Shown piece by piece: positions 5,172 through 32,646 of a stretch of DNA of 32,646 nt. Every line of letters begins with the position of its first letter. Within the stretch, counting starts at the first letter, position 1. The notes beneath the pieces are model-generated. The model was given only the letters and a program-made list of their open reading frames with translations. It had not been told where the DNA came from and did no database searches. The stretch comes from an uncultured Lachnospiraceae bacterium. GTDB taxonomy: Bacteria; Bacillota; Clostridia; Lachnospirales; Lachnospiraceae. The stretch lies in NCBI GenBank assembly GCA_947627245.1, contig CANQVH010000042.1:1-32646 (forward strand), in the 5' to 3' direction. The position numbers and the translations under genes were made by a program.

Positions 5172-8100
5172 CTACTTCTTTACGCGATTCCGCCTCCTGC
5201 GCTTCTCTCCTGCGGCCGCCGCAAACAGCCCCGCCGAGAGCATCATATAGAAAAGGTACAGCAGAAGGTTTGTCTCATCGCCTGTCTTCGACGCTGACGT
5301 ACCGGAGCCCGGAGCCGTCCCCGGTTCATCCGGAAGATCCGTTTCCGTCTCCGTCTCATCCTCTTCCTCAATAAAGTCGTTCGTGATCGTGACCTCCTGA
5401 TTCGAGTTTTCCGCATTCAGCACGATCCCGCTCTTATCAATGGAGATCCGGTATTCCGTGACCGCGTCCGGATCCAGCGGCGTTCCGTTCTTATCCGTCT
5501 CCGCCACGTAGTACGTCGCGCTGCTTTCAAGCGTCTCGCCGATTGGCAGGTCATACACGGTCACGCTCGCCGTGCTCCCGCCGTTCATCGCAAGCGCCAC
5601 TACATCGCTGTTCGGTGAAGTCAGCGCGGCATCCGAGAATACCCTCGCATAGAAGGTGTCCTCCGACGTAGCCTCCGTCCCATTCAGCAGCACCTTCTTC
5701 GTGATCGTCAGCCGTCCCGACAGGTAGAAGCCCTCCTCCGGAACCTCCACGTATACATTGGTAAGCTCCGACGTAGCCTCTCCTTTTCTGCCCTCAAATT
5801 CGACCTTTGCGTTTTCGCCGTATTGCGCGTAGTAGATTACGCGGTCATTGACTACTTCCGATTCCTTCAGAACGCCGTTCTCATCCGTCTCGCCCAAATA
5901 ATAGGTGCCCTTGCCCAGATTCTCAAACTCCGCCGTGCTGATCGCAGAATCCTTGAAGGTCAGGGCCTTCACGTCGCTGACACGATGCGTCTTTGCCTCG
6001 TCGTCGAACAGCGCCACATAGAACACCGCATCATGGATCCCGATATCGCAGGTGATCCCGTCCAGTTGGAGATGCTTCATCACCGTGAGCTTATTGTTAT
6101 CCCTCTCCGGGATCTTCGTATCGGTCATCTGTACCTCGACCGGCTGCGTCTCATTTCCGGTGATCTCAAACGGGACGTCCTCGGACACATGGTATCCGGC
6201 CGGCGCCTCTACCTCGCTCATCACGTAATGCCCTCTCGCCAGACCCCTTGTCACATGCGGCGTGCCGTCCGATACCCAGTTGTCCACGGCCGTGCCGGTG
6301 GCATCCTCGATCACCAGATGCGCGCCCGGAAGCGGCTGTCCTGCCTCATCAAGCTTCAGGAGGCTGATCGTATTTTTCGTGTCCTTCATCACAACGGTAT
6401 CTGTGATCTGGCCGCCAACTACGATCTCGCCCTTTTCATTCATTGTAAAGTCAGCCGGGCCTGTCGGCATATAGCCGTCCGGCGCGCTCACCTCTTCCAG
6501 CGCATAAGAGCCGTTCTTGCTCAGCTTTCCGAGGACCTCATGCGGCTTCCCGTCCGACGTCCATTCCTCGACGACCGCGCCATTGCTCTTATCCACGATC
6601 CGCAGCACCGCGCCCGGAATGCCCGCGCCCGTTTCCGCATCCTGCTTGTCGAGGTACGCTTTCGTGGAGGTGTTCGTGAAGGTCACTTTGTCCGGCGACA
6701 CCGCCGTCGCGACCAGCTTCGCATCCACGTCCTTTACCGTAACAGTCACAGTGTAGACTGCCGCATCGTAGGCTAGCACGGTCGGATCGTTGCCCGCGGT
6801 CTCGCTGATCTGGTAATAATAGGTTCCTTCCTTATCATACGGGATCGGGTCAAACAGGACACTGCCGTCCTTGCCGTTTACAGCCTCGCGCGAGATGCCG
6901 CCCTCGACCGCATGACCGTTCTGATCCACTTCCCGGAGCGCGAACGTGAACTCGTTGCCCTCCAGCTCCCGGTCAAACGCTTTCGTCGCCCCGAGCCGGA
7001 TGCTCGTATCCTCTGCATCGTAAACATTCTCAAAAGCAACATCTGCCGCGGCCACTTCCTTGCCGTCCTTGCTGTACTTCACATCCGCATGCAGATTTCC
7101 AAGACCGTCGTCCGTCACGCTCACCGTCACCGTGTAGACCGACGGATCCTTCGTAATGCCGGCCTCAGCCGTATTCTCCTCCTTCAGCTCGTATGTGTAC
7201 GTACCGGCCTGCGTATAAGTCAGCTTCTCAAATGTCACGTTGCCGTTACCGTCGTTCGACGCCGTCAGCATCCCGCCCGGATTCGTCTCCGCGTCCGTGT
7301 TCGGATCCGTGATCTCTGTCTTTCCGTCCGCAGCCACCGCGCTCACCGGTGTCAGGCTGAAGCTAAACTCCTTATCCTGCAGTCCATTCGCACGCCCGGT
7401 CAGCTTCTTCGTCGCGCTTACCGTTGCCGTGCCTATCGCGGTATACTGGTTCGTAAAGATAACATCTTCCGCAGATACTTCCGCATCACCTTTCTTATAC
7501 GTTACCGTCTGGGTCAGATGGCCTTCATCATTGTCCTCCATTTCCACTATCACTGTGTACACCGTCGGATCTTTCTTGATGCCGCCCTTGTCCGTTTCTT
7601 CCTCTTTCAGTGTATATGTGTAGGTTCCGGCTTGCGTGTAATTCAGGGTGTCAAAGTTTATTGCCTCACCCTTATTCGTCTTCGTCTGATCCGCATTCGA
7701 ATCTGTAATAGGCTTATTATCTTTGTCTAACGCGCTCACTTTCGTCAGGCTGAAACTAAACTCACCGTCCTCCAACGCTTTCGCACGTCCGTTCAGCTTC
7801 TTCGTCGCGCTCACTGTCGCCGTGCCTGTCGCAGTATACTGGTTCGTAAAGACTACTTCTGCCGCAGATACTTCCTTGTCACCCTTCTTATACGTTACCG
7901 TCGGGGTCAGATGCCCTGCATCGTCATCCTCCATTTCCACCGTCACCGTATACACCGTCGAGTCCTTTGTGATACCGCCCTTGTCCGTTTCCTCCTCTTT
8001 CAATGTATACGTGTAGGTTCCAACCTGCGTATAATTCAGGGTGTCAAAGTTTATTGCCTCGCCTTTATTTGTCTTCGTCTGGTCCGCATTCGAATCTGTA

Positions 8101-11100
8101 ATCGGCTTATTATCTTTGTCTAACGCGCTCACTTTCGTCAGGCTGAAGCTGAACTCACCATCCTCCAGCGCTTTCGCACGTCCGTTCAGTTTCTTCGTCA
8201 CGCTCACCGTCGCCGTGCCTGTCGCGGTATACTGGTTCGTAAAGACTACTTCTGCCGCAGATACTTCCTTGTCACCCTTCTTATACGTTACCGTCGGGGT
8301 CAGATGCCCTGCATCGTCATCCTCCATTTTCACTGTCACCGTGTACACCGTCGGATCTTTCTTGATGCCGCCTTTGTCTGTTTCTTCCTCTTTCAGCGTA
8401 TACGTATAGGTTCCGGCCTGCGTATAATTCAAAGTGTCAAAGTTTACTGCTTCGCCTGTATTCGTCTTCGTCTGGTTCGCATTCGGATCCGTGATAGACT
8501 TATCATCTTTATCTACAGCACTCACCTTCGTCAAGCTGAAGCTGAACTCACCATTCTCCAGCGTTTTCGCACGTCCGTTCAGTTTCTTCGTCGCGCTCAC
8601 TGTCGCCGTGCCTGTCGCAGTATACTGATTCGTGAAGACCACCTCTGCCGCTGGTACTTCATCGTTACCCTTCTTATACGTTACCGTCGGAATCAGGTGC
8701 CCTGCATCGTCATCCTCCATTTTCACCGTCACCGTATACACCGTCGAGTCCTTTGTGATACCGCCCTTGTCCGTTTCCTCCTCTTTCAATGTGTACGTAT
8801 AGGTTCCGGCCTGCGTATAATTCAAAGTGTCAAAGTTTACTGCTTCGCCTGTATTCGTCTTCGTCTGATCCGCATTCGAATCTGTAATCGGCTTATTATC
8901 TTTGTCTAACGCGCTCACTTTCGTCAGGCTGAAACTAAACTCATCGTCCTCCAACGCTTTCGCACGTCCGGTCAGCTTTTTTGTCGCGCTCACTGTCGCC
9001 GTGCCTGTTGGAGTATAAGTATTTGTGATAACCCAATTGTTATCACTTTCCGCTTCCGTATCTGCCGCTACTGTAACCTTATATACGTCGCTCAAATTAG
9101 ACGTATCTTCCTTTACCGTATACTCATAATCTACTTCATTCAAAGACGTCGGCTGGTCTGCAAAAGTAACACTTCCCCAGTTTCCTTCTGCGTCCGGTTT
9201 CAGGGATTCCACAGCGACACGCTCATATGCGCTGTCATCCGCACCCTTCGGCTTACGAAGCAACCAGACCTCAATCTGAGCCGGTCTCTCGATCTTCTCT
9301 TCAGCCCGACCTTTTTCATCCCAAACCTTGCGAGCAGTGACGGTGATGCTCGTCGGAGAGTTTCCAATAATAACCGTTCCGTTCGTGCCGATACCGCCGC
9401 CCTTTGTATCGGATTCGTTGTTTTCTATATAAACTGCAGCCTTACTTGTATCTTTCGGACTTGCTTCTGTATGAAGACTAATTCCTAATTTATGTTCCAA
9501 CTGCGCTTTTGCAAAAAGATAGTTCTTTGTATTTTTATTGAGTTCATTCATCATTACATAATTTCCGTCTTTATCCTTCCATTGATAGGGAGTCCCATCG
9601 GACATGTAATGTGAAATAAATACATCTGCAAATACACCCTTTATGGATGATCCGTCAAGCTCCGTCGCGATATAAATATCATCACTTTCTTTGTTTTTTC
9701 CCGTATTTCCATAGACAGCAGCACCATCCACCGGCAAAATTTTTACACTTGACGTTGGGCAACCGGCAATACCTCCTCCTTCGGAAGCGGTATTATTTCT
9801 TATAACGGCATTTGTTAATGTAAGGACTCCATTCTCATAACCCGATCTTTCTCCCGTCATAGTCTGTCCGCCATACATTACACCATTCTTGCCACCGTTT
9901 ACATAGATTCCTCCTCCTCCATACGCACCCAAATTGACAATATTCGATGAAATTTTTCCACCTGATATATTTGCTTTTGCATTACACTGTACAAAGATTC
10001 CGCCACCATATTGCTTTGCAACATTCCCCTGAACCGTACCGCCCGTCATTGTTAATGTAGGAGAAACATTTACCGTATCCGCATAATAGCCGCCGACCGC
10101 GATTCCTCCTCCATAACCTTCTCCTTCATTTTCTCTAGCAGAATTATATGAAATTACCGCTTCACCACTCAGGGTCATATGCGCTCCGTTCGCAAGCATG
10201 ACAGCGCCACCCGAACCTTTTGCGCTGTTGGCATCCGACAGTGTTGAACCTCCAAGCAGACCGCCACTCATGGCAAAATCACCGCCCTCACAATAGACAG
10301 CTCCACCGTTAGTCGCTTCACAATTCTTAATTGTTCCGCCGGTCATTTCCAAAGATCCGCCCTTATTATAGACAGCTCCGCCGTTAGTTGCTTTACAGTT
10401 TTCAATTAATCCGCCGGTTATTTTTACGTTGCCGCCGTTGTTATAGACAGCTCCGCCATTAGAACTGTGATAGTTACCGCTTAATACCACACTTTCTTCT
10501 ATGAAGAGATTTCCTCCACTTTCCACTTGAATGAGAGGATAATTCGAGGGCGTTTTAATCCCTGCACCCTTCAATTCAATGCTCTTGAGAGTAAGGTTCC
10601 CTCCCGTCTCCACTATAGCAAGCGGTTTTTTACCGACACAAGCTTCATAGTTGAAAGAAAAATCTGCTGGCAGATACCATGTTTGATTCGCTGTTACATG
10701 AACCGTACCGACAAGATAAATCTTTTTCCCTACATCTTGCGCCAACTCAATCGCTTTTTCCATTGATGCAACAGGAGAACCCTTGGTATATCCCGAATTT
10801 TCATCATTCGCATTTTCACCGCCAAGATATATCGTCCCTTCGGTTCTAAGCAAAATCAAGGCTTTTTTATCTTCTGATGCAGTTAGCACAGCCTTTCCAG
10901 TAATAGCCGAATCAAGTGATATAGTGGTTATATCTACTAAATCTTCTATCTTTGTTCCCTCGATCAATTTAAGTGAATTGCTGACACCGTCTCCTTCCAG
11001 CCATTTTGCAAAAAGGGTTTCCCCAAACGAAAGTCTTTCCGACGCAGAAAGCCCAATATTTATCTTAGCATCTTTTTGTATTTCAAATTTCTTTCCCGTT

Positions 11101-13730
11101 TTCAACCATGTAGTATTTTCATAAGTCGATTCGTCTAGCGATTTACTATTATATGTAGCAAAATCCAGTACAACTTCTAAAGGACTTTTCAATACCGTGT
11201 CAAGTGTAAAAGTACCGGAAAATTGTGCAATCTGGTCCACCTGAGCATTTTGTTCCAGTTTAACGGTTCCATAATTTTTCACACCTTTTATATGTGCCCC
11301 ACCTGTAATTGTAAGAGACGCTTCGCTGTCCTTTTTAGTTCCTACACTTATTGTCTCATTCAATTCGGTCGAAAAATTATCATACCCTCCAATCATCTCC
11401 CCGGATCCTGTTACCGTGAGGGATTTTTCATCTGGTATTCTGATAGTTGCTCTATGAGCAGAATCAGTATATTCCGTTGACAATTTCAACGTCTGATTAT
11501 TCAAATCAATCGTAACGGATGCAATTAAATCAATCGGATCTTTTACTTCAATAGTTCTGTTTACTGGCGCACCTGTTAATGTATCAGGAAGTAATTGAAT
11601 AACATCTCCATCTATAGACGCAGCTACTGCATTAGCAAGTGTTTTAAAGCTCTTAGGTGTCTCTTTATCTCTTATAATCTGAGCTTCATATGACAATACC
11701 TCGCCTGCTTTATACTGATATTTTTTATCTGCCTTTTCAAAGTTCAACATTCCACTCTGATTAGCCATCTCCTCTGTATGTCCAATCCATGCATTATATT
11801 CAATTTTTTCCTCTTCCGGAAATTCCATTTCCGATACTGCGAGAATATTTGCAGTCGCCCCTTGTTCAATCGTAACATCGATATCGTCCACACTTCCCTT
11901 ACCACTTCCATACAATGCACCGCTCGTCATAGTGGCTTTTCCGCCGTTTGCGATGTAAAGTCCATTGGAAATGGTTTCACCCTTTATGGTCGTGCCTGTA
12001 ATCGTAATCGTTCCCTTATCGCCAACATATACTGACCCTAGTCCGGAATGATTATTTGACAAAGTGCTACCGGACAAATTCACATTTGAACCATTCAACG
12101 CGCAAATTACTGCATTGGCACTTCTAATATCTGTAAATTTCGAGTTTTTAATCGAAACATCTCCACACTTATCAAACCGCAAAACAGCATCTTTGTTTTC
12201 ATTAGAATCATAATCTCCTCCTGTTCCACCTTCAAAATTTAATCCTGTTATCTCAACTTCCGTGCAACTCGTAAAATAAGCCGCAGAATATTTTTTTGAA
12301 CCCGATGCCCCTTGCCCGGTAACTTTTACAGTATTCATAGACACTCTATCGCAATCATCAACATACATGAACCACGCTCCCCCATCATCACAAGCGGATA
12401 TCTGTATTGGGGTTCCATTCACGCTCACGTCATTCATCGTAAGAGTGCCGCCGTTTTGATAAATAATACCGCCGCCATTTCCCTTACGCTTACCACTACT
12501 AAATGCTACATTCTCCAAAACAATGTCTGCATTTTTAGCATGAATACATGCAGCGCTATATCCAGCCTGACTATTGGTATATCTGGTATTGGAAAAGCTA
12601 CCATTTTGTATTGTAAGGCTTCCTTCTCCTGTTACAGTAATATTTGGTTTACCTGATTCAGAATACAACGATAGATCATTTAAATCCAAGGTAATGCTCT
12701 TTCCTCCAAGTTCAATATTATAATTTCCATAAGCACCACCCCAATAATCTAAATCATCAAAAAGTTTAATCGTCTGCCCATTATCGACTTTCTCCACTGC
12801 ATGATGAAGATAGTGCCACCCCAGAGGATTTCCTTCAGAATCAAAAATCTGCACCTCTGGATAATATATATCTTCTTCTATACCTTCCGCTTCATTAACA
12901 TAATCAATATACTCTTCTTTGCACTCATCGCACGTAACATCATTCCACTGTAGAAATCCCTCTGGCAATTCCGGCAACTCACCATCCGTCGCCGTCAACA
13001 TAATCTCATCGTCAAGCCCCATCGCCATGACTTCAGCCTCGTACTCTGCTTCCGTCTCGGCCTCGTCTTCTACCGGCTCCAGAGTATCCGCTCCCTGCTC
13101 AAGCGTCTGCGGCTCTGTCTCTTCCTCTACGATGATATCCGAATCGGATTCCACGTCAACAGCAGGCCCGGACTCCTCGTCCGCGCCCGTCCCGTCTTCT
13201 GTTGCGGATCCGGAAAGAGTCTCCTGCCCGGCTTCCGGTTCAGACCCGGACGGAGCTGTCTGTTCGTTCTCCGGTTCTGATATGGATGGATCTGCCTGTC
13301 CGATTTCCGGCTCTGCGTCCGCCGGCTGCTCTGTCTTGCTCTCCGGCTCAGGTTCGAGTTCCTGTGTTCCCGCGACGTTCTCACCGGCATTTTCCTGTCC
13401 TGTCGAGGAATCGTCCCCTTGTCCGGATGTAGAATCAGACCCCGGTACGCTCTCTTCGTCAAGGACAAGATCGCCTCCCTGCGCCGCTTCCGGCTGTGTC
13501 ACGGATTCGGCAGGATCGCCTGCCGCTTCGCCGTCCGGTATCACCACAGTGTTGTCATCTATGATCTCCTGCTCGCCTTCCGTCCCGGAAAGCGGCGTGA
13601 CTTCGCTGCCTGCGATTTCCGTAACGGGCTCTCCCTCCATAGCCAGCAATGCTGTCGCCTGACTATTGAAGATCAGCGTAAACACCAGTAACAACGCAAA
13701 AATTCTGTCCAGTTTTTTTCTTGCTTTCAT
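5172..13730 (-). CDS. giant surface adhesin: beta-helix, CnaB, FctA/SpaA-type repeats, atypical sorting signal
   Basis: 2852 residues. Residues 1-31 are a signal peptide (MKARKKLDRI, then a hydrophobic core to ALLAME). About 32-250 is a disordered Glu/Ser/Pro/Gly stalk. About 290-1440 is right-handed beta-helix sequence with GGAVYNNGG, ITGG and GGGIYV motifs as in Pmp/pectate-lyase-like adhesins. About 1459-1573 is a CnaB-type domain (TVTARKVWDEKGRAEE). Residues 1576-2099 are four 131-aa pilin isopeptide-type repeats (GTATVSATKKL...FTNQYTAT), followed by two diverged ones to ~2350. Two SpaA-like domains (about 2356 and 2452) and two more beta domains lead to the C-terminus. It ends SASKTGDETN, a hydrophobic span and GEKRRRRNRVKK: a sorting-signal layout with KTGDE but no LPXTG. 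It is likely covalently wall-bound and used in adhesion or aggregation. The start has a poor ribosome site (GTGATGG). Confidence 0.93.
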   Translation of the reverse strand: MKARKKLDRIFALLLVFTLIFNSQATALLAMEGEPVTEIAGSEVTPLSGTEGEQEIIDDNTVVIPDGEAAGDPAESVTQPEAAQGGDLVLDEESVPGSDSTSGQGDDSSTGQENAGENVAGTQELEPEPESKTEQPADAEPEIGQADPSISEPENEQTAPSGSEPEAGQETLSGSATEDGTGADEESGPAVDVESDSDIIVEEETEPQTLEQGADTLEPVEDEAETEAEYEAEVMAMGLDDEIMLTATDGELPELPEGFLQWNDVTCDECKEEYIDYVNEAEGIEEDIYYPEVQIFDSEGNPLGWHYLHHAVEKVDNGQTIKLFDDLDYWGGAYGNYNIELGGKSITLDLNDLSLYSESGKPNITVTGEGSLTIQNGSFSNTRYTNSQAGYSAACIHAKNADIVLENVAFSSGKRKGNGGGIIYQNGGTLTMNDVSVNGTPIQISACDDGGAWFMYVDDCDRVSMNTVKVTGQGASGSKKYSAAYFTSCTEVEITGLNFEGGTGGDYDSNENKDAVLRFDKCGDVSIKNSKFTDIRSANAVICALNGSNVNLSGSTLSNNHSGLGSVYVGDKGTITITGTTIKGETISNGLYIANGGKATMTSGALYGSGKGSVDDIDVTIEQGATANILAVSEMEFPEEEKIEYNAWIGHTEEMANQSGMLNFEKADKKYQYKAGEVLSYEAQIIRDKETPKSFKTLANAVAASIDGDVIQLLPDTLTGAPVNRTIEVKDPIDLIASVTIDLNNQTLKLSTEYTDSAHRATIRIPDEKSLTVTGSGEMIGGYDNFSTELNETISVGTKKDSEASLTITGGAHIKGVKNYGTVKLEQNAQVDQIAQFSGTFTLDTVLKSPLEVVLDFATYNSKSLDESTYENTTWLKTGKKFEIQKDAKINIGLSASERLSFGETLFAKWLEGDGVSNSLKLIEGTKIEDLVDITTISLDSAITGKAVLTASEDKKALILLRTEGTIYLGGENANDENSGYTKGSPVASMEKAIELAQDVGKKIYLVGTVHVTANQTWYLPADFSFNYEACVGKKPLAIVETGGNLTLKSIELKGAGIKTPSNYPLIQVESGGNLFIEESVVLSGNYHSSNGGAVYNNGGNVKITGGLIENCKATNGGAVYNKGGSLEMTGGTIKNCEATNGGAVYCEGGDFAMSGGLLGGSTLSDANSAKGSGGAVMLANGAHMTLSGEAVISYNSARENEGEGYGGGIAVGGYYADTVNVSPTLTMTGGTVQGNVAKQYGGGIFVQCNAKANISGGKISSNIVNLGAYGGGGIYVNGGKNGVMYGGQTMTGERSGYENGVLTLTNAVIRNNTASEGGGIAGCPTSSVKILPVDGAAVYGNTGKNKESDDIYIATELDGSSIKGVFADVFISHYMSDGTPYQWKDKDGNYVMMNELNKNTKNYLFAKAQLEHKLGISLHTEASPKDTSKAAVYIENNESDTKGGGIGTNGTVIIGNSPTSITVTARKVWDEKGRAEEKIERPAQIEVWLLRKPKGADDSAYERVAVESLKPDAEGNWGSVTFADQPTSLNEVDYEYTVKEDTSNLSDVYKVTVAADTEAESDNNWVITNTYTPTGTATVSATKKLTGRAKALEDDEFSFSLTKVSALDKDNKPITDSNADQTKTNTGEAVNFDTLNYTQAGTYTYTLKEEETDKGGITKDSTVYTVTVKMEDDDAGHLIPTVTYKKGNDEVPAAEVVFTNQYTATGTATVSATKKLNGRAKTLENGEFSFSLTKVSAVDKDDKSITDPNANQTKTNTGEAVNFDTLNYTQAGTYTYTLKEEETDKGGIKKDPTVYTVTVKMEDDDAGHLTPTVTYKKGDKEVSAAEVVFTNQYTATGTATVSVTKKLNGRAKALEDGEFSFSLTKVSALDKDNKPITDSNADQTKTNKGEAINFDTLNYTQVGTYTYTLKEEETDKGGITKDSTVYTVTVEMEDDDAGHLTPTVTYKKGDKEVSAAEVVFTNQYTATGTATVSATKKLNGRAKALEDGEFSFSLTKVSALDKDNKPITDSNADQTKTNKGEAINFDTLNYTQAGTYTYTLKEEETDKGGIKKDPTVYTVIVEMEDNDEGHLTQTVTYKKGDAEVSAEDVIFTNQYTAIGTATVSATKKLTGRANGLQDKEFSFSLTPVSAVAADGKTEITDPNTDAETNPGGMLTASNDGNGNVTFEKLTYTQAGTYTYELKEENTAEAGITKDPSVYTVTVSVTDDGLGNLHADVKYSKDGKEVAAADVAFENVYDAEDTSIRLGATKAFDRELEGNEFTFALREVDQNGHAVEGGISREAVNGKDGSVLFDPIPYDKEGTYYYQISETAGNDPTVLAYDAAVYTVTVTVKDVDAKLVATAVSPDKVTFTNTSTKAYLDKQDAETGAGIPGAVLRIVDKSNGAVVEEWTSDGKPHEVLGKLSKNGSYALEEVSAPDGYMPTGPADFTMNEKGEIVVGGQITDTVVMKDTKNTISLLKLDEAGQPLPGAHLVIEDATGTAVDNWVSDGTPHVTRGLARGHYVMSEVEAPAGYHVSEDVPFEITGNETQPVEVQMTDTKIPERDNNKLTVMKHLQLDGITCDIGIHDAVFYVALFDDEAKTHRVSDVKALTFKDSAISTAEFENLGKGTYYLGETDENGVLKESEVVNDRVIYYAQYGENAKVEFEGRKGEATSELTNVYVEVPEEGFYLSGRLTITKKVLLNGTEATSEDTFYARVFSDAALTSPNSDVVALAMNGGSTASVTVYDLPIGETLESSATYYVAETDKNGTPLDPDAVTEYRISIDKSGIVLNAENSNQEVTITNDFIEEEDETETETDLPDEPGTAPGSGTSASKTGDETNLLLYLFYMMLSAGLFAAAAGEKRRRRNRVKK
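7434..9005 (-). repeat. four tandem 393-bp repeats within the adhesin gene
   Basis: The codons for GTATVS recur at minus-strand positions 9005, 8612, 8219, 7826 and 7433. That is exactly 393 bp (131 codons) apart, so four full units fill 7434-9005 and a diverged fifth begins at 7433. The units are nearly identical over long stretches, including silent positions. They differ mainly in a few codons such as ALDKDNKPITDSNAD versus AVDKDDKSITDPNAN. This implies recent duplication or homogenisation and scope for length change. Confidence 0.95.
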
Positions 13731-26791: not shown

Positions 26792-27334
26792 ATGGCAAAG
26801 TATGTATGTAAGGTTTGTGGCTACGTTCACGAGGGAGACTCCGCACCGGAGCAGTGCCCGGTCTGTAAGGCACCGGCGGAAAAGTTCGAGCTGATGCAGG
26901 AGGGCATCACTTGGGCTTGCGAGCATGAGGTCGGCATCACCGCCGGCGTCAGCGACGAGATCCTTTCCGGCCTGAGAGCAAACTTCGAGGGCGAGTGCAC
27001 AGAGGTTGGCATGTATCTGGCTATGGCAAGAGTTGCGCACAGAGAGGGTTATCCGGAGATCGGCATGTACTGGGAGAAGGCTGCTTACGAAGAGGCTGAG
27101 CACGCTGCGAAGTTCGCTGAGATCCTCGGTGAAGTCGTTACCCCGAGCACCAAGAAGAATCTTGAGATGCGCGTGGCCGCTGAGAACGGCGCTACCGCAG
27201 GCAAGCTTGAGCTGGCTAAGATGGCGAAGGCTGCGAACCTCGACGCAATCCACGACACCGTTCACGAGATGGCAAAGGACGAGGCCCGACACGGCAAGGC
27301 ATTCAAGGGTCTGCTTGAGAGATACTTTGGTTAA
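26792..27334 (+). CDS. reverse rubrerythrin (rubredoxin domain first), peroxide reductase
   Basis: 180 residues. The N-terminal rubredoxin-like domain has C6/C9 (YVCKVCGY) and C22/C25 (QCPVCKAP), binding one iron. The ferritin-like four-helix domain follows, with di-iron Glu/His motifs [34 protein letters not shown] and [18 protein letters not shown]. The rubredoxin domain precedes the ferritin domain, the reverse of classic rubrerythrin. Reverse rubrerythrins of clostridia act as NADH-dependent peroxide reductases with partner electron carriers. Strong codon bias suggests high expression. GGGAG precedes ATG 26792, and the gene is cotranscribed with perR. Confidence 0.94.
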
Positions 27335-27366
27335 GAAAATTGCCTGATTTAAAGGATTTTTGAAAC

Positions 27367-27404
27367 AACAGGGAGCAGATCAGAAATGGTTTGCTCCCTG
27401 TTTG
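27367..27404 (+). terminator. terminator of the perR-rubrerythrin operon
   Basis: AACAGGGAGCA (27367-27377) pairs with TGCTCCCTGTT (27392-27402), an 11-bp perfect stem with a 14-nt loop, followed by TG and pyrimidines. The T-run is short but the stem is strong. Confidence 0.7.
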
Positions 27405-27405
27405 A

Positions 27406-27479
27406 TTGTCCTTTTGTTGTCCCTTTTTTATTTAGGATAGTCTAACAACAGCTAAAGTTGTCCTTCTTAGAAGTTGTCC
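27406..27479 (+). repeat. four TTGTCC direct repeats at the junction to AT-rich DNA
   Basis: TTGTCC occurs at 27406, 27417, 27458 and 27474, each followed by pyrimidines (CTTTTG, CTTTTT, TTCTTA, TTTGTT type). Spacing is irregular (11, 41 and 16 bp). They sit just after the host terminator, where base composition falls. They could be iterons, integrase arm sites or simple pyrimidine bias. From 27480 to 27670 I see no gene or further structure. Confidence 0.4.
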
Positions 27480-27686
27480 TTTGTTACTACCTCATTCTAC
27501 TTCAAAACTACCCTTTTTTCAAGCTATTTTATATCGTATTCAAAACAAACAAAACCGTATACTTCACTCTTCCAGACAAATTAATATCATCCACTTCTTA
27601 ATATATAACGATTGCAAAATATTTTTTAAGTCAAGTTGCCAAAACCCCGATCTCATTCGTATGATAATAGGGAAAGGAGGATAACT

Positions 27687-28028
27687 ATGGCAAAGAAAAA
27701 AACTGCGGATTTTCTAGTTTATGGTAAGCCTGATTTAATAACAGAGATAACAGATGACTTTGCCGGTCAAATTTCTAGGACAACCGTGAAAAAGGTAATT
27801 AACGCTTTTGAGGACGCAATTAAAAGGCATCTACTTGAAGCAAAACCGAATATGGCAATCTCTATTCGTCCTTTTCTTGGTTTACGGCTACAAGCATTTA
27901 TAGACCCTGAAAAAACAACCGACACGGTTTTCGGAAAAAATGTACTTGTACCTGAACGAATACGCTGCAAGGCAAAATCAACACGTTATTTTTCAAGATG
28001 CCTGAATGATCTACGAAAAGATATGTAG
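27687..28028 (+). CDS. HU/IHF-like DNA-binding protein (tentative)
   Basis: 113 residues from ATG 27687, chosen for AAAGGAGG 7 bp upstream; an earlier in-frame ATG at 27636 lacks such a site. The sequence follows the HU plan: an N-terminal helical part (ISRTTVKKVINAFEDAIKRH), then PNMAISIRPFLGLRLQAFID in place of the HU GxxVxLxGFGxFxxR strand, PEKTTDTVFGKNVLVPERI as the arm (HU: NPxTGExIxIP), and KSTRYFSRCLNDL as the C-terminal helix (HU: FKPGKxLKdal). It is longer and more diverged than housekeeping HU. It is the first gene of the AT-rich segment and precedes the 600-aa gene by 57 bp. It may organise the element's origin or recombination site; this is inference. Confidence 0.6.
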   Translation: MAKKKTADFLVYGKPDLITEITDDFAGQISRTTVKKVINAFEDAIKRHLLEAKPNMAISIRPFLGLRLQAFIDPEKTTDTVFGKNVLVPERIRCKAKSTRYFSRCLNDLRKDM

Positions 28029-28084
28029 ACCTTTAGTTCCTATGCAGATTCCAAAATGAAAAATTGATACGAGAGGGGAATTTT

Positions 28085-29887
28085 ATGAAACCTGAAAAAC
28101 ACAATGAAATTGGTTTAGCTATAAAAAATAACATTGATGAAATGAAGGCTGCGGAAGAACGGTTTAGTGATGATATTCAAGAAATACTTCACTTGCATAA
28201 AAAAGAATTAAATGAATTAATAAAAAAAATGGAAGGAACTCCGGAGTCTGAGCAAACATTCATTATTGGAAAGAAACTATTTGATACTTTTATATATGAG
28301 AAACTATTTTTATATGAGCGTACAGATAATAACCGAATAGGCATTATTATGTCCATAGAAAACGATTATGGTGCTGCTTTCCGTATGATGAAAGAATATG
28401 ATTTCCAAGATGAATTTATAGAAAAAATCCAGTTGTATTTTAGTAAGTTTAGTATACCTGTATTTGGGGATGAAAGAGACAAGCAGATTCAGGAAATAAA
28501 AAAACAGGGTGCAGAAAACAAGTATAATAAGATATTGAATCAAATCATAATGTATTCATTAATGGAAGGAATTGATAATTGGAAAACTACTCAATTAATT
28601 AACGCTTTATTAAATAAATTCTATTTTGAAGTAACCATGCCAGCCGAAGATAATAAAATTGCTCATGAACGCTACCGAATTAAAAATGATATTCCTGATT
28701 TTTCTGATGTCTATTTGGGGCAAGAATGGCAAGGAAAGAATAGAATAGCACAGTTTATCTATGCGCTTCATCTTCAGCCAAAACCAGCCGGAAAAAACAC
28801 ACGCAAAGCGCAAGAGAAAAGTATATTGCGAAGTTGCGCATTTGCGGATGATAAATCAAATAAAAAATTAACTCTTCTGGAAATTTATGCGGAACGACGC
28901 CCTAAGTTTCGGAAAGAGAGAGAAAAGAAGTATGAGCCGTATATTACGGTCTTGTTGCTAAAGCGTTTATTAACAATAGAAAATGGAATAATAAAGACAA
29001 CAAGAAATAACTTTTTAGAAACGATAGGAGCTATACCACATACATATAAAAAAATTCCTGTTCAATTTTATATAGAGATGATGCCTGATATATTAGTATC
29101 TGGTGACTTGAATAAAGACTTAAAAAGATTTCATGAAATTACAAGTCGAAGATTTAAGGAAATCGTTAATCCAATACTTGAAAGCTTAGAGGAAAAATCT
29201 TTAATAAAGTATCGGATATATCCAGTTGTAGTTACTGTCGATCCTGACGGAAAAGAAATTCAAACCTCTGTTTTTAATTCTGAGAGTTTAGGACTAGAAA
29301 AAGGAAAACTTGCTAAGATGATGATGGCAGCAGAACAATATGCAGCAAGTCAAATTGAAGTAAATTATTTTGATAGTCAAGAACGGAAAATAAAAACAAT
29401 AAAGCTAAAAAATGTTTCAGATGTTATGAAGTATTGGAAATATCAAGACTATAAGCAAATCTATGACAATTACATTGCAGAAGAATATGGTTGGAAATAT
29501 ACCTATGAGCAACTAGAGATTGTTTCAACTGGAAATATTGAATTAGTACAAGCAGCTATACGGGACACAGAAAAAGCAATCGAAAATATTAATCAACTTC
29601 TAGTGAAATCTCTTCAAACTACTATTGAAAAAAAGGTAAGCAACGCAGAAGCAAAATATCAATACGAATATGAGCAAATAAAGCAAAAGTACATTGCACA
29701 GTCAGATACCAAATTCTTATTAGATAATGGTATAATTAGTTTAGAAGATATACATAAAAAAACGAATACCTTCAGATATAACAGTAATTTTCCAGAGAGA
29801 ACAAATTATTTTATTCAACACGAAATAAAATTTGATACGCAGACTCAGGAAAAAGTAAATGAATGGATACGGGAAAATAAAAAATGA
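28085..29887 (+). CDS. unrecognised 600-aa Lys/Glu-rich protein of the accessory element
   Basis: 600 residues from ATG 28085 (AGAGGGG 8 bp upstream); an in-frame TTG at 28064 is less likely. I do not recognise a family. It is hydrophilic and mostly helical, with no signal peptide or membrane span. A segment at about 348-385 (RFHEITSRRFKEIVNPILES then LEEKSLIKYRIYPVVV) reads like a winged-helix unit. Residues ~500-550 (AAIRDTEKAIENINQLLVKS and EAKYQYEYEQIKQKY) look like a coiled coil. Size, winged-helix-like part and an adjacent HU-like gene, with a large hairpin just downstream, would suit a plasmid replication or partition protein. No catalytic motif supports a specific role. Its codon use is far more AT-rich than the host genes. 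Confidence 0.8.
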   Translation: MKPEKHNEIGLAIKNNIDEMKAAEERFSDDIQEILHLHKKELNELIKKMEGTPESEQTFIIGKKLFDTFIYEKLFLYERTDNNRIGIIMSIENDYGAAFRMMKEYDFQDEFIEKIQLYFSKFSIPVFGDERDKQIQEIKKQGAENKYNKILNQIIMYSLMEGIDNWKTTQLINALLNKFYFEVTMPAEDNKIAHERYRIKNDIPDFSDVYLGQEWQGKNRIAQFIYALHLQPKPAGKNTRKAQEKSILRSCAFADDKSNKKLTLLEIYAERRPKFRKEREKKYEPYITVLLLKRLLTIENGIIKTTRNNFLETIGAIPHTYKKIPVQFYIEMMPDILVSGDLNKDLKRFHEITSRRFKEIVNPILESLEEKSLIKYRIYPVVVTVDPDGKEIQTSVFNSESLGLEKGKLAKMMMAAEQYAASQIEVNYFDSQERKIKTIKLKNVSDVMKYWKYQDYKQIYDNYIAEEYGWKYTYEQLEIVSTGNIELVQAAIRDTEKAIENINQLLVKSLQTTIEKKVSNAEAKYQYEYEQIKQKYIAQSDTKFLLDNGIISLEDIHKKTNTFRYNSNFPERTNYFIQHEIKFDTQTQEKVNEWIRENKK

Positions 29888-29896
29888 AAGAATATC

Positions 29897-29958
29897 ACCC
29901 CCCCCCAATAAAATCTCTATAATATAAAAAATAAATTATAGAGAAAATAAATGGGGGT
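29897..29958. repeat. poly-C tract and nested hairpin after the 600-aa gene
   Basis: Nine C in a row (29898-29906) face GGGGG (29953-29957), forming an outer ACCCC/GGGGT stem. Inside, TCTCTATAAT (29914-29923) pairs with ATTATAGAGA (29935-29944). The structure begins ten bases past the stop codon. It could be a terminator, a replication origin hairpin, or a slippage-prone tract. From 29,960 to 30,143 I see only AT-rich DNA. Confidence 0.55.
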
Positions 29959-30143
29959 ACAATATATAATATCCTAAAAGATTACTTTGTTACCTCATCC
30001 TCTTTATATAAAAGTTCGTTTGATGAACAGCTATTCTCATTTGCCCGTTCCCGTAAAAAAATATTTTTTTTATACTTTTTCAGACAAAATATGTGTCCGA
30101 ATCATATATTTTTCCGTAAATTTTCCGTTCGCTTTTTACAAAG

Positions 30144-31578: not shown

Positions 31579-31809
31579 TTAATTATCCATATTATTTAGT
31601 TCTGCGCCCACTGGTATAAAATCAGGAATCGCTTCAGCCAACAGCTTATTGACAAGACTATTAACGCTTTCTCCCTGATTAGCAGCAAATGACTTTATAC
31701 GCTCTCGTTCTCCCTTGTTGACCTGAATCGCAATTCTATCATAGTTTCTCGCGTTATATGCATTTTTAGCAACTGTCTGTGAATTTTTACCATCTTCTCT
31801 TTTCTTCAA
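31579..31809 (-). CDS. ribbon-helix-helix (CopG/Arc-like) DNA-binding protein
   Basis: 76 residues from TTG 31809, chosen because GAGGTGG ends 5 bp upstream; a GTG at 31818 would overlap that site. After a Lys-rich start, NYDRIAIQVNKGERERIKSF is the beta strand and first helix, and GESVNSLVNKLLAEAI the second helix of an RHH fold. These dimerise and insert the strand into DNA, usually as autorepressors of plasmid, partition or toxin-antitoxin genes. No toxin gene is adjacent. Three promoters in this segment share a 12-bp motif over their -35 boxes, including its own, so this protein is the natural candidate to bind it (inference). Confidence 0.75.
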   Translation of the reverse strand: MKKREDGKNSQTVAKNAYNARNYDRIAIQVNKGERERIKSFAANQGESVNSLVNKLLAEAIPDFIPVGAELNNMDN

Positions 31810-31845: not shown

Positions 31846-31877
31846 ATAATATCATAGTTTTTGTTCGTGTGCAAGTA
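31846..31877 (-). promoter_or_regulatory. promoter and operator of the ribbon-helix-helix gene
   Basis: Minus strand TTGCAC (31869-31874), 17-bp spacer, TATTAT (31846-31851). The -35 lies inside TACTTGCACACG (31866-31877), the motif found again at 32438-32449 and 32504-32515. Confidence 0.7.
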
Positions 31878-31911
31878 TATGTTGTTTACATTAAAGGAAT
31901 CTGTTCTTGAA

Positions 31912-31938
31912 AAAAACCGCCATATTCAGGCGGTTTTT
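31912..31938 (-). terminator. terminator of the 92-aa gene
   Basis: AAAAACCGCC (31912-31921) and GGCGGTTTTT (31929-31938), 10-bp stem with a 7-nt loop. T-runs exist on both strands, so it can act in both directions. It separates the 92-aa gene from the ribbon-helix-helix promoter. Confidence 0.85.
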
Positions 31939-31985
31939 CAGGTACTTTTTTATATCACAGCTTTGTATCTAATTTTCATTTTTCG

Positions 31986-32264
31986 CTATTTTATATATAA
32001 TCGTCTGTACTGTGTTACCCTTTGATAATCTATAAGGCTACCCAAGTCTGCTTCAAGTCGCTTTGTATCAATCGTGCGCCGCTCTGCTGTGGCAACCTTA
32101 ACTGTGAAATCACTTCCTGTCTCTGTTATCTTTTCGTTTATATCCATATAAGAAATAATTTCTCGCTCTGCATCCTTTAACTGCTCTTCAAGCTCTTCTT
32201 TCAATGCCTTTAACCCTCTGTAGTCATTTACGATTGCCTCAAGCTCTTTCATAGTTCTACACAT
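31986..32264 (-). CDS. 92-aa coiled-coil protein of mobile-element type
   Basis: 92 residues from ATG 32264; an in-frame ATG lies 4 codons on. MKELEAIVNDYRGLKALKEE continues as a charged helix to about residue 45. A C-terminal strand-rich part follows with SDFTVKVATAERRTIDTKRL and YQRVTQYRRLYIK. The helix followed by a (S/T)(R/Q)RR(L/F)xxK end resembles short phage and conjugative-element proteins of the Gp157-like or substrate-unknown type. Function is not known. AAGGGAAGG lies 8 bp upstream. It has a consensus promoter, a ~150-nt leader and a good terminator, so it is a separate unit. Confidence 0.75.
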   Translation of the reverse strand: MCRTMKELEAIVNDYRGLKALKEELEEQLKDAEREIISYMDINEKITETGSDFTVKVATAERRTIDTKRLEADLGSLIDYQRVTQYRRLYIK

Positions 32265-32269
32265 ATTTT

Positions 32270-32335
32270 TTACCTTCCCTTCTCTTTTGGTTGGGGTAGC
32301 CTCAAAATCATCTTCGTGTCTATTGCCGCCGTCAT
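32270..32335 (-). CDS. possible 21-aa leader peptide before the 92-aa gene
   Basis: ATG 32335 to TAA 32270 reads MTAAIDTKMILRLPQPKEKG-R. Its last codons AAGGGAAGG are also the ribosome site of the 92-aa gene, and only 5 bp separate stop and start. That geometry would suit translational coupling. No ribosome site precedes the leader's own ATG, so it may be chance. Confidence 0.3.
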   Translation of the reverse strand: MTAAIDTKMILRLPQPKEKGR

Positions 32336-32417
32336 CGTTGGCTCACAGGTATATGGCTTTTGATTTATTGAGAGGCTTTCGGCTCTCTCGGCTGCTCCCT
32401 TGTTTGATTATGATTGA

Positions 32418-32449
32418 ATTATAGCACAGTATTTATACGTGTGCAAGTA
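32418..32449 (-). promoter_or_regulatory. promoter and operator of the 92-aa gene
   Basis: Minus strand TTGCAC (32441-32446), 17-bp spacer, TATAAT (32418-32423), a perfect -10. The -35 is inside the shared motif TACTTGCACACG (32438-32449). Confidence 0.75.
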
Positions 32450-32503
32450 GTAATAGTAAACAAATTTATTTCCCTTCAGATAGATATTTCTGTGAATTAT
32501 TTA

Positions 32504-32535
32504 TACTTGTACACGTATATATAAAAGTATATAAT
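32504..32535 (+). promoter_or_regulatory. divergent plus-strand promoter with the same operator
   Basis: TTGTAC (32507-32512), 17-bp spacer, TATAAT (32530-32535). The -35 is inside TACTTGTACACG (32504-32515), inverted relative to the copy at 32438. It faces the right edge of the window, so the gene it drives lies mostly outside. Confidence 0.7.
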
Positions 32536-32590
32536 ATGTTTATCAATAAAGTTTGAACATTAATATTTAAAAGGTAGTGTCAAGTAGTCT

Positions 32591-32632
32591 ATGAAAATCT
32601 GGAGCCAGCAAAAAGGCTCCGAAGAACCTTGA
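32591..32632 (+). other. hairpin and 13-codon ORF in the leader of the rightward transcript
   Basis: GGAGCC (32601-32606) and GGCTCC (32615-32620) form a 6-bp stem with loop AGCAAAAA. The same stretch is a short frame, MKIWSQQKGSEEP, from ATG 32591 to TGA 32632, without a good ribosome site. It may be a leader structure for a gene beyond the window. Confidence 0.3.
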
Positions 32633-32646
32633 AAATTGCAGATATA

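Follow-up and report, generated by a model that had tools for sequence, protein, structure and literature searches.

The window analysed here is the whole of contig C42, 32,646 nucleotides from the assembly of an uncultured Lachnospiraceae bacterium, which is 96.97% complete with 7.01% contamination, so that the contig could in principle be foreign. Its G+C content is mostly 51-62% per kilobase, with a stretch of 39-49% at about 8-13 kb, and is 29-37% from 28 kb on. One reading frame, at 2,852 aa very long and with a mid-part of lower G+C, occupies 5172-13730 on the minus strand. Near the sites described below are genes for a serine recombinase (PF00239, 1.2e-20), for a ribbon-helix-helix (RHH) protein and for a 92-aa protein, p92 (Table 1). 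The remainder of the element appears to lie on contig C30, which carries a tyrosine integrase (PF00589, 1.2e-13; L064 6091-7311). A similar stretch of about 140 bp is found at both outer element ends, in the window at 27270-27440, at the end of a rubrerythrin gene, and in L064 at 5730-5910; these stretches are probable attachment sites of the integrase. By arithmetic from the outer ends, a size of about 11 kb without an insertion sequence (see below) fits. L064 also encodes, at 8637-10571 and next to sprT, a 644-aa protein with choline-binding-type repeats (PF19127, 6.7e-11).

The open-reading-frame listing starts the RHH gene at GTG 31818 (79 aa); the ribosome site read by eye and the related locus L007 suggest that TTG 31809 is probably the start instead. 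The protein matched phrog_13890 (1.7e-14) and the Arc-like repressors of phrog_582 (9e-4), and its family profile A7 matched AmrZ (2.7e-5) and Arc (2.9e-4) in the PDB. An AF2 monomer model built from 5 sequences had a mean pLDDT of 77.6, with helices at 32-44 and 49-60 and no assigned strand of the RHH fold. Every Pfam match of this protein fell under its gathering score, leaving no curated family assignment, and the NCBIfam RelB match was weak (15.5 bits where the cut-off is 50; E 0.016). Membership of the RHH (MetJ/Arc) superfamily is thus supported at the level of fold, by phrog_582, the profile matches and the AF2 helices. phrog_13890 is common to the RHH proteins of the window and of L007, L040, L063, L067, L118 and L132 at 1.3e-9 or below. 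No toxin family was matched next to the RHH gene, whose neighbours are p92 (RecE-C-like) and the serine recombinase, so the adjacent toxin gene that marks a type II antitoxin was not found. A tblastn search with the RHH protein gave no match in plasmids and phages; among viral contigs, single-sequence scans found none and an alignment-based scan found one, L040.

Table 1. Features at the right-hand end of the window (sites are candidates; positions are those of the window).
Feature	Position	Strand	Description
RHH protein gene, proposed repressor	31579..31809	-	76 aa from TTG 31809
Operator O1 (candidate), TACTTGCACACGAA	31864..31877	-	Covers -35 31869-31874 of the RHH promoter; -10 TATTAT 31846-31851
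p92, 92-aa protein gene	31986..32264	-	Similar to C-terminal part of RecE-like exonucleases; phrog_434 3.6e-9
Untranslated leader of p92	32265..32420	-	Kept in L006 and L063 though L063 operators differ
Operator O2 (candidate), TACTTGCACACGTA	32436..32449	-	Covers -35 32441-32446 of the leftward promoter of the 92-aa gene; -10 TATAAT 32418-32423
Operator O3 (candidate), TACTTGTACACGTA	32504..32517	+	Covers -35 32507-32512 of the rightward promoter; -10 TATAAT 32530-32535
Insertion sequence end, probable	32573..32646	+	Starts GGTAGTGTCAA; at contig end, between rightward promoter and sprT

The first-pass annotation had reported three copies of a 12-bp site, each holding a -35 box with a -10 box exactly 17 bp away, at two divergent promoters and at the RHH gene's own. 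This was borne out in every particular. Exact copies of TACTTGYACACG occupy 31866-31877 (-), 32438-32449 (-) and 32504-32515 (+), the -35 boxes read TTGCAC, TTGCAC and TTGTAC with spacers of 17, 17 and 17 bp, and the arrangement of the promoters, read from the sequence, is as described. A simple promoter scanner recovered all three, though in a shifted register that reads TGYACA with a spacer of 16; it called 8 sites in total, against a shuffle mean of 5.1. The scan for additional copies that the annotation had proposed yielded zero further exact matches in the genome: the whole 3,844,432-base assembly holds 3, against 1 for the reversed-pattern control. A host-wide regulon acting through the 12-mer is therefore ruled out, all three copies lying at these promoters. 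A looser motif, TACNTGYACANG, with at most 1 mismatch, was uninformative (345 places, versus 410 for its reversed control).

Exact matches to TACTTGYACACG expected by chance in the last 1,047 bp, on both strands, amount to 1.9e-4. Shuffling this AT-rich stretch nevertheless produced some 12-mer with three near copies (at most 1 mismatch) in 8 of 100 cases, which makes the repeat count alone weak evidence; the weight rests on the identical offset to three -10 boxes and on conservation. The full site is longer than the 12-mer, a 14-bp imperfect palindrome with two-fold related halves, TACTTGYACACGTA, of which 12 of 14 positions are self-complementary at 32504, 10 of 14 at 32436 and 8 of 14 at 31864.

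Scanning genome contigs with the RHH protein led to two loci, L006, in a Lachnospiraceae MAG (RHH 97-99% identical), and L007, a 4,235-bp contig of Roseburia sp. 1XD42-69 (RHH 79-80% identical). L006 keeps all three sites and promoters at corresponding places, O2 being conserved and O3 differing by one base, and its rightward gene encodes a 216-aa SprT-like protein (PF10263, 1.4e-8). In L007 a single exact site is found, at the RHH promoter, whose boxes read TTGCAC-17-TATACT; neither p92 nor SprT was found in this contig by profiles. In the three-way alignment of the RHH promoters, 58 of 132 columns are invariant, and the longest unbroken invariant run is the 13-base block ATACTTGCACACG, the form in which O1 is present in both relatives. 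An extra copy of the motif in the L006 genome (L008) lies inside a 321-aa reading frame and was taken as chance.

In the L006 genome, the same cargo has TniQ, TniB and Mu-type transposase genes for neighbours, with a GMP synthase gene adjoining them (L038 1-4309, Tn7-like). Next to the serine recombinase gene, a segment that holds a 600-aa gene and one for an HU-like protein is inverted between the window (27686-29964) and L006 (6878-9298); a search for flanking repeats gave nothing clear, with one 12-bp A/T-rich inverted match in the window and none in L006. The L006 counterpart of the 644-aa protein measures 511 aa, by eye.

Homologues of p92 adjoin SprT or RHH genes in other loci. The p92 leader is strongly conserved where operators differ, between the window, L006 (4395-4558), L063 (6352-6514) and L132, and may possibly be a structured RNA absent from Rfam. 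As a known RNA it was rejected, the four Rfam matches listed all scoring far under the gathering score. A leader pattern with at most 1 mismatch was met in 3 of 397 genomes, the match in G334 lying inside a reading frame, and part of the leader recurs beside an RHH gene in G154; a longer exact pattern had no match in viral contigs. Just downstream of p92 in L063, at 6792-6848, there is a type-P5 twister ribozyme (RF02684, 61.1 bits).

The rightward promoter had been proposed to serve an operon outside the window. The SprT-like gene of L006 fits this proposal, with the qualification that in the window strain an insertion sequence probably stands between promoter and gene. The terminal 74 bp of the contig match 12 places in the genome, counting their own, and no fewer than 6 of these lie 5 bases or less from the end of a contig. 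Contig C30 stops 99 bp past the start of a SprT gene 93% identical to that of L006, and its end carries the same GGTAGTGTCAA, reading inward. Moreover, ATTTAAAA is present on both flanks (C42 and C30) where L006 runs continuous. An insertion sequence is likely because GGTAGTGTCAA ends both contigs and ATTTAAAA flanks the place of interruption, the link between C42 and C30 being inferred rather than assembled. The rightward branch may accordingly be cut from sprT in this strain.

Relatives of SprT were found in 12 of 397 family genomes at 1e-30 and in 15 of 392 order genomes at 1e-45, the own genome being included in both, and at 32 loci in viral contigs. With the short flanks that were fetched, an RHH match accompanied SprT at 1 of the 32 loci in viral contigs, at 2 of 13 in family genomes and at 3 of 16 in order genomes, L117 duplicating L067 in these counts; the two own-genome SprT loci score no RHH, since the contig break and the limited flanks keep it out of reach. 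RHH profile A1, built from the window, L006 and L007 alone, matches the RHH proteins of L063, L067 and L118 and not that of L065. Matches of L063, L065 and L067 to profile A3 arise by construction, since A3 contained them.

Different repeated sites stand before these same genes in other loci. L065 has a palindrome of about 20 bp, imperfect and approximately ATTTATATGN4CATATAA, shared by its RHH, p92 and sprT promoters; equally good sharing arose in 0 (RHH-p92), 2 (RHH-sprT) and 0 (p92-sprT) of 500 shuffles. The p92 of this locus matches phrog_434 at 1.1e-10. Its RHH gene is weakly assigned, with 22% identity, a phrog_13890 match at 0.0016, a leave-one-out match at 8.2e-5 (on an arbitrary scale) and no match in a Pfam search. 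In L067 and L118, which come from one genus, the RHH gene and the sprT operon are each preceded by three ACTATGCACAWAGT-type sites (0 of 500 shuffles as good in either locus). L040, in a viral contig, encodes an RHH relative 44% identical, whose gene is preceded by three TGTACA-centred sites, one of them, by reading, over TTGTAC-17-TATGCT; in 5000 shuffles of this upstream region, two perfect palindromes of at least 16 arose in 0 and one in 14. Before the p92 operon of L115 is a four-fold repeated site, and no RHH relative was found by profiles in this 12-kb locus. The window host itself carries two such loci with different operators. The second, on contig C16 (L063), has SprT, p92 and an RHH relative 35% identical over 52 residues, together with a TnsB relative (72%) and a TniB protein (1.3e-14). 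Its sprT/p92 region holds CATGGGTACATG three times, and the rest of the genome has none, the L063 RHH promoter included; another regulator may therefore act there.

Between RHH and partner promoters, operator sharing as good was reached by 1 of 500 shuffles for the window and 0 of 500 for L006. In four loci no shared operator was detected, the shuffles that equalled the observed sharing numbering 252 of 500 in L063, 53 in L040 (RHH against p92), 264 in L101 and 491 in L030. Of the 8 loci whose partner promoters stand apart from the RHH promoter (the window and L006 being treated as one), 4 share an operator and 4 do not. L007, where no partner was seen, L123, whose RHH gene lies at the edge of the locus, and L013, L035 and L132, each with a single divergent region, fall outside this count. 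Within single regions, repeats were matched by 0 of 500 shuffles for L013, 3 for L035, 0 for L115 and 0 for the L040 RHH promoter; L132 failed this test (245 of 500). A scan of viral contigs for the motif plus a -10 box returned 19 stretches, which were taken as chance because none has an RHH, SprT or p92 profile match at 1e-3.

Upstream of RHH relatives, repeats or palindromes are commoner in the real promoters than in shuffled ones. Among 30 upstream regions, each comprising the 200 bp that precede the listed start or the profile match and thus partly coding for many, 8 had repeats (binomial 8.5e-5) and 5 had palindromes at p <= 0.05; the window, L006, L007, L063 and L065 were not significant in these tests. 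In an overlapping set of 33 regions, 8 had a TGYRCA-centred palindrome at p <= 0.05, where 1.65 were expected (binomial 1.8e-4, for a pattern picked after seeing the window and L040), the window reaching p = 0.07 and L007 p = 0.12. An association of TGYRCA with R as the first residue of the strand (6 of 18 versus 1 of 15) was discarded: the script had assigned no strand in four of the 15, three of which look R-type, and this makes the split unreliable.

Based on these data, we propose, with a probability of roughly three in four, that an RHH repressor encoded by the element uses the three sites as its operators in an autoregulated three-promoter regulon, one site being common to the promoter of the regulator and to further promoters of the element. 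RHH dimers would bind two inverted half-sites (about TACKTGY) of the 14-bp palindrome covering the -35 box and would thereby block RNA polymerase at the promoters of the RHH gene and p92 and at the divergent rightward promoter, which in L006 is predicted to drive the SprT-like zinc protease gene. Repression rather than activation is expected because the site overlaps the -35 box. By repressing its own promoter as well, the protein would switch all three together and hold its own level steady, until some signal presumably relieves the repression. Autoregulation is favoured because L007 keeps the site before its RHH gene and because other RHH genes share different operators with their partner promoters. 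The autoregulatory master switch of the first-pass annotation, probably the RHH protein, is thus supported as to autoregulation, by L007 and related loci, and narrowed as to reach: with no further exact copy in the genome and none before the integrase, the regulon would comprise three promoters and not the whole element.

The same sites could be bound by another regulator, encoded by the element or the host, with the RHH gene merely one target. The L063 operator shared by sprT and p92 and missing from the RHH promoter would suit such a regulator, as would the four-fold site of L115, in a locus where no RHH relative was found. We nevertheless consider it unlikely, as the site stays with the RHH gene in L007, where no p92 or SprT was found, three exact genome copies do not make a host regulon, and where RHH genes have diverged, in L065, L067/L118 and L040, the operators are different too. 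It would take still more to read the 12-mer as a shared promoter element, a favoured -35 context and not an operator. Every copy does contain a -35 box, and three near copies of some 12-mer arise in a part of the shuffles given above; yet conservation extends past the -35 box and is palindromic, the repeated sites of L063, L065 and L115 lie, by reading, in the promoter spacer or upstream, and L067 and L118 have three sites per promoter, so that this explanation seems highly improbable.

Binding by the RHH protein could also serve DNA architecture, the sites doubling as, or mainly being, a partition or transfer site like parS of pSM19035, where omega uses promoter-overlapping repeats both as parS and for expression control (PMC9499535). 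Weak matches to PHROG "partition protein ATPase" by the RHH proteins of L063 (2.6e-5) and L040 (6.2e-4) point the same way. Each promoter has one site, however, with no contiguous arrays, and no ParA or relaxase Pfam match was obtained among the scanned element proteins, several of which match nothing; an architectural role seems very improbable.

If the sites are operators of the RHH repressor, a regulator-operator pair becomes testable, with named target genes, for little-studied small elements of gut bacteria. More interesting is that nature supplies a series of at least four clearly different repeated sites in front of one set of genes, from which RHH specificity change and the insulation of co-resident elements could be studied. 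One could speculate, against considerable odds, that RHH and the SprT-like zinc protease form a two-part switch in which the protease inactivates the repressor, and that lineages rewrote operator and RHH reading strand into immunity-like specificity groups, letting several elements share a genome without cross-talk. What links the SprT-like gene to RHH is co-location and a shared operator. Our literature searches found nothing pairing SprT with ribbon-helix-helix and a mobile genetic element, nothing on SprT-like proteins together with integrative and Lachnospiraceae or together with plasmid, operator and repressor, and nothing for the CopG and the Tn7-like/guaA combinations.

Arc of phage P22 and AmrZ are the nearest solved relatives of the RHH protein by profile, at superfamily level, and differ from it in hosts, operators and targets; an S-V-N-S stretch of the protein recurs in Arc. 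A repressor accompanied by a metalloprotease is also seen in ImmR/ImmA, where ImmA cleaves ImmR. This pair of ICEBs1 and its kin likewise belongs to mobile elements, with a cI-like HTH repressor (PMC10233336), whereas the repressor here is RHH and the protease SprT-like. E. coli RelB (relBE) is an RHH autorepressor acting on inverted hexads [A/T]TGT[A/C]A in its own promoter (PMC2812701); the window site has similar TTGT/ACA halves, but its RHH gene stands without a recognised adjacent toxin and its sites serve three promoters. The autoregulated RHH repressor of a mobile element, omega-like, is a kind already known. In pSM19035, omega (ParB) serves partition and binds 7-10 consecutive 7-bp repeats (WATCACW) that overlap three promoters, those of copS, delta and its own gene omega (PMC9499535). 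Unlike that arrangement, the window has a single 14-bp inverted site per promoter in place of consecutive 7-bp arrays, and different target genes. No ParA Pfam match was seen among the scanned element proteins on either side of the gap between the contigs, several of which match nothing. What the two systems have in common is a small RHH protein of a mobile element with sites at three promoters, its own among them.
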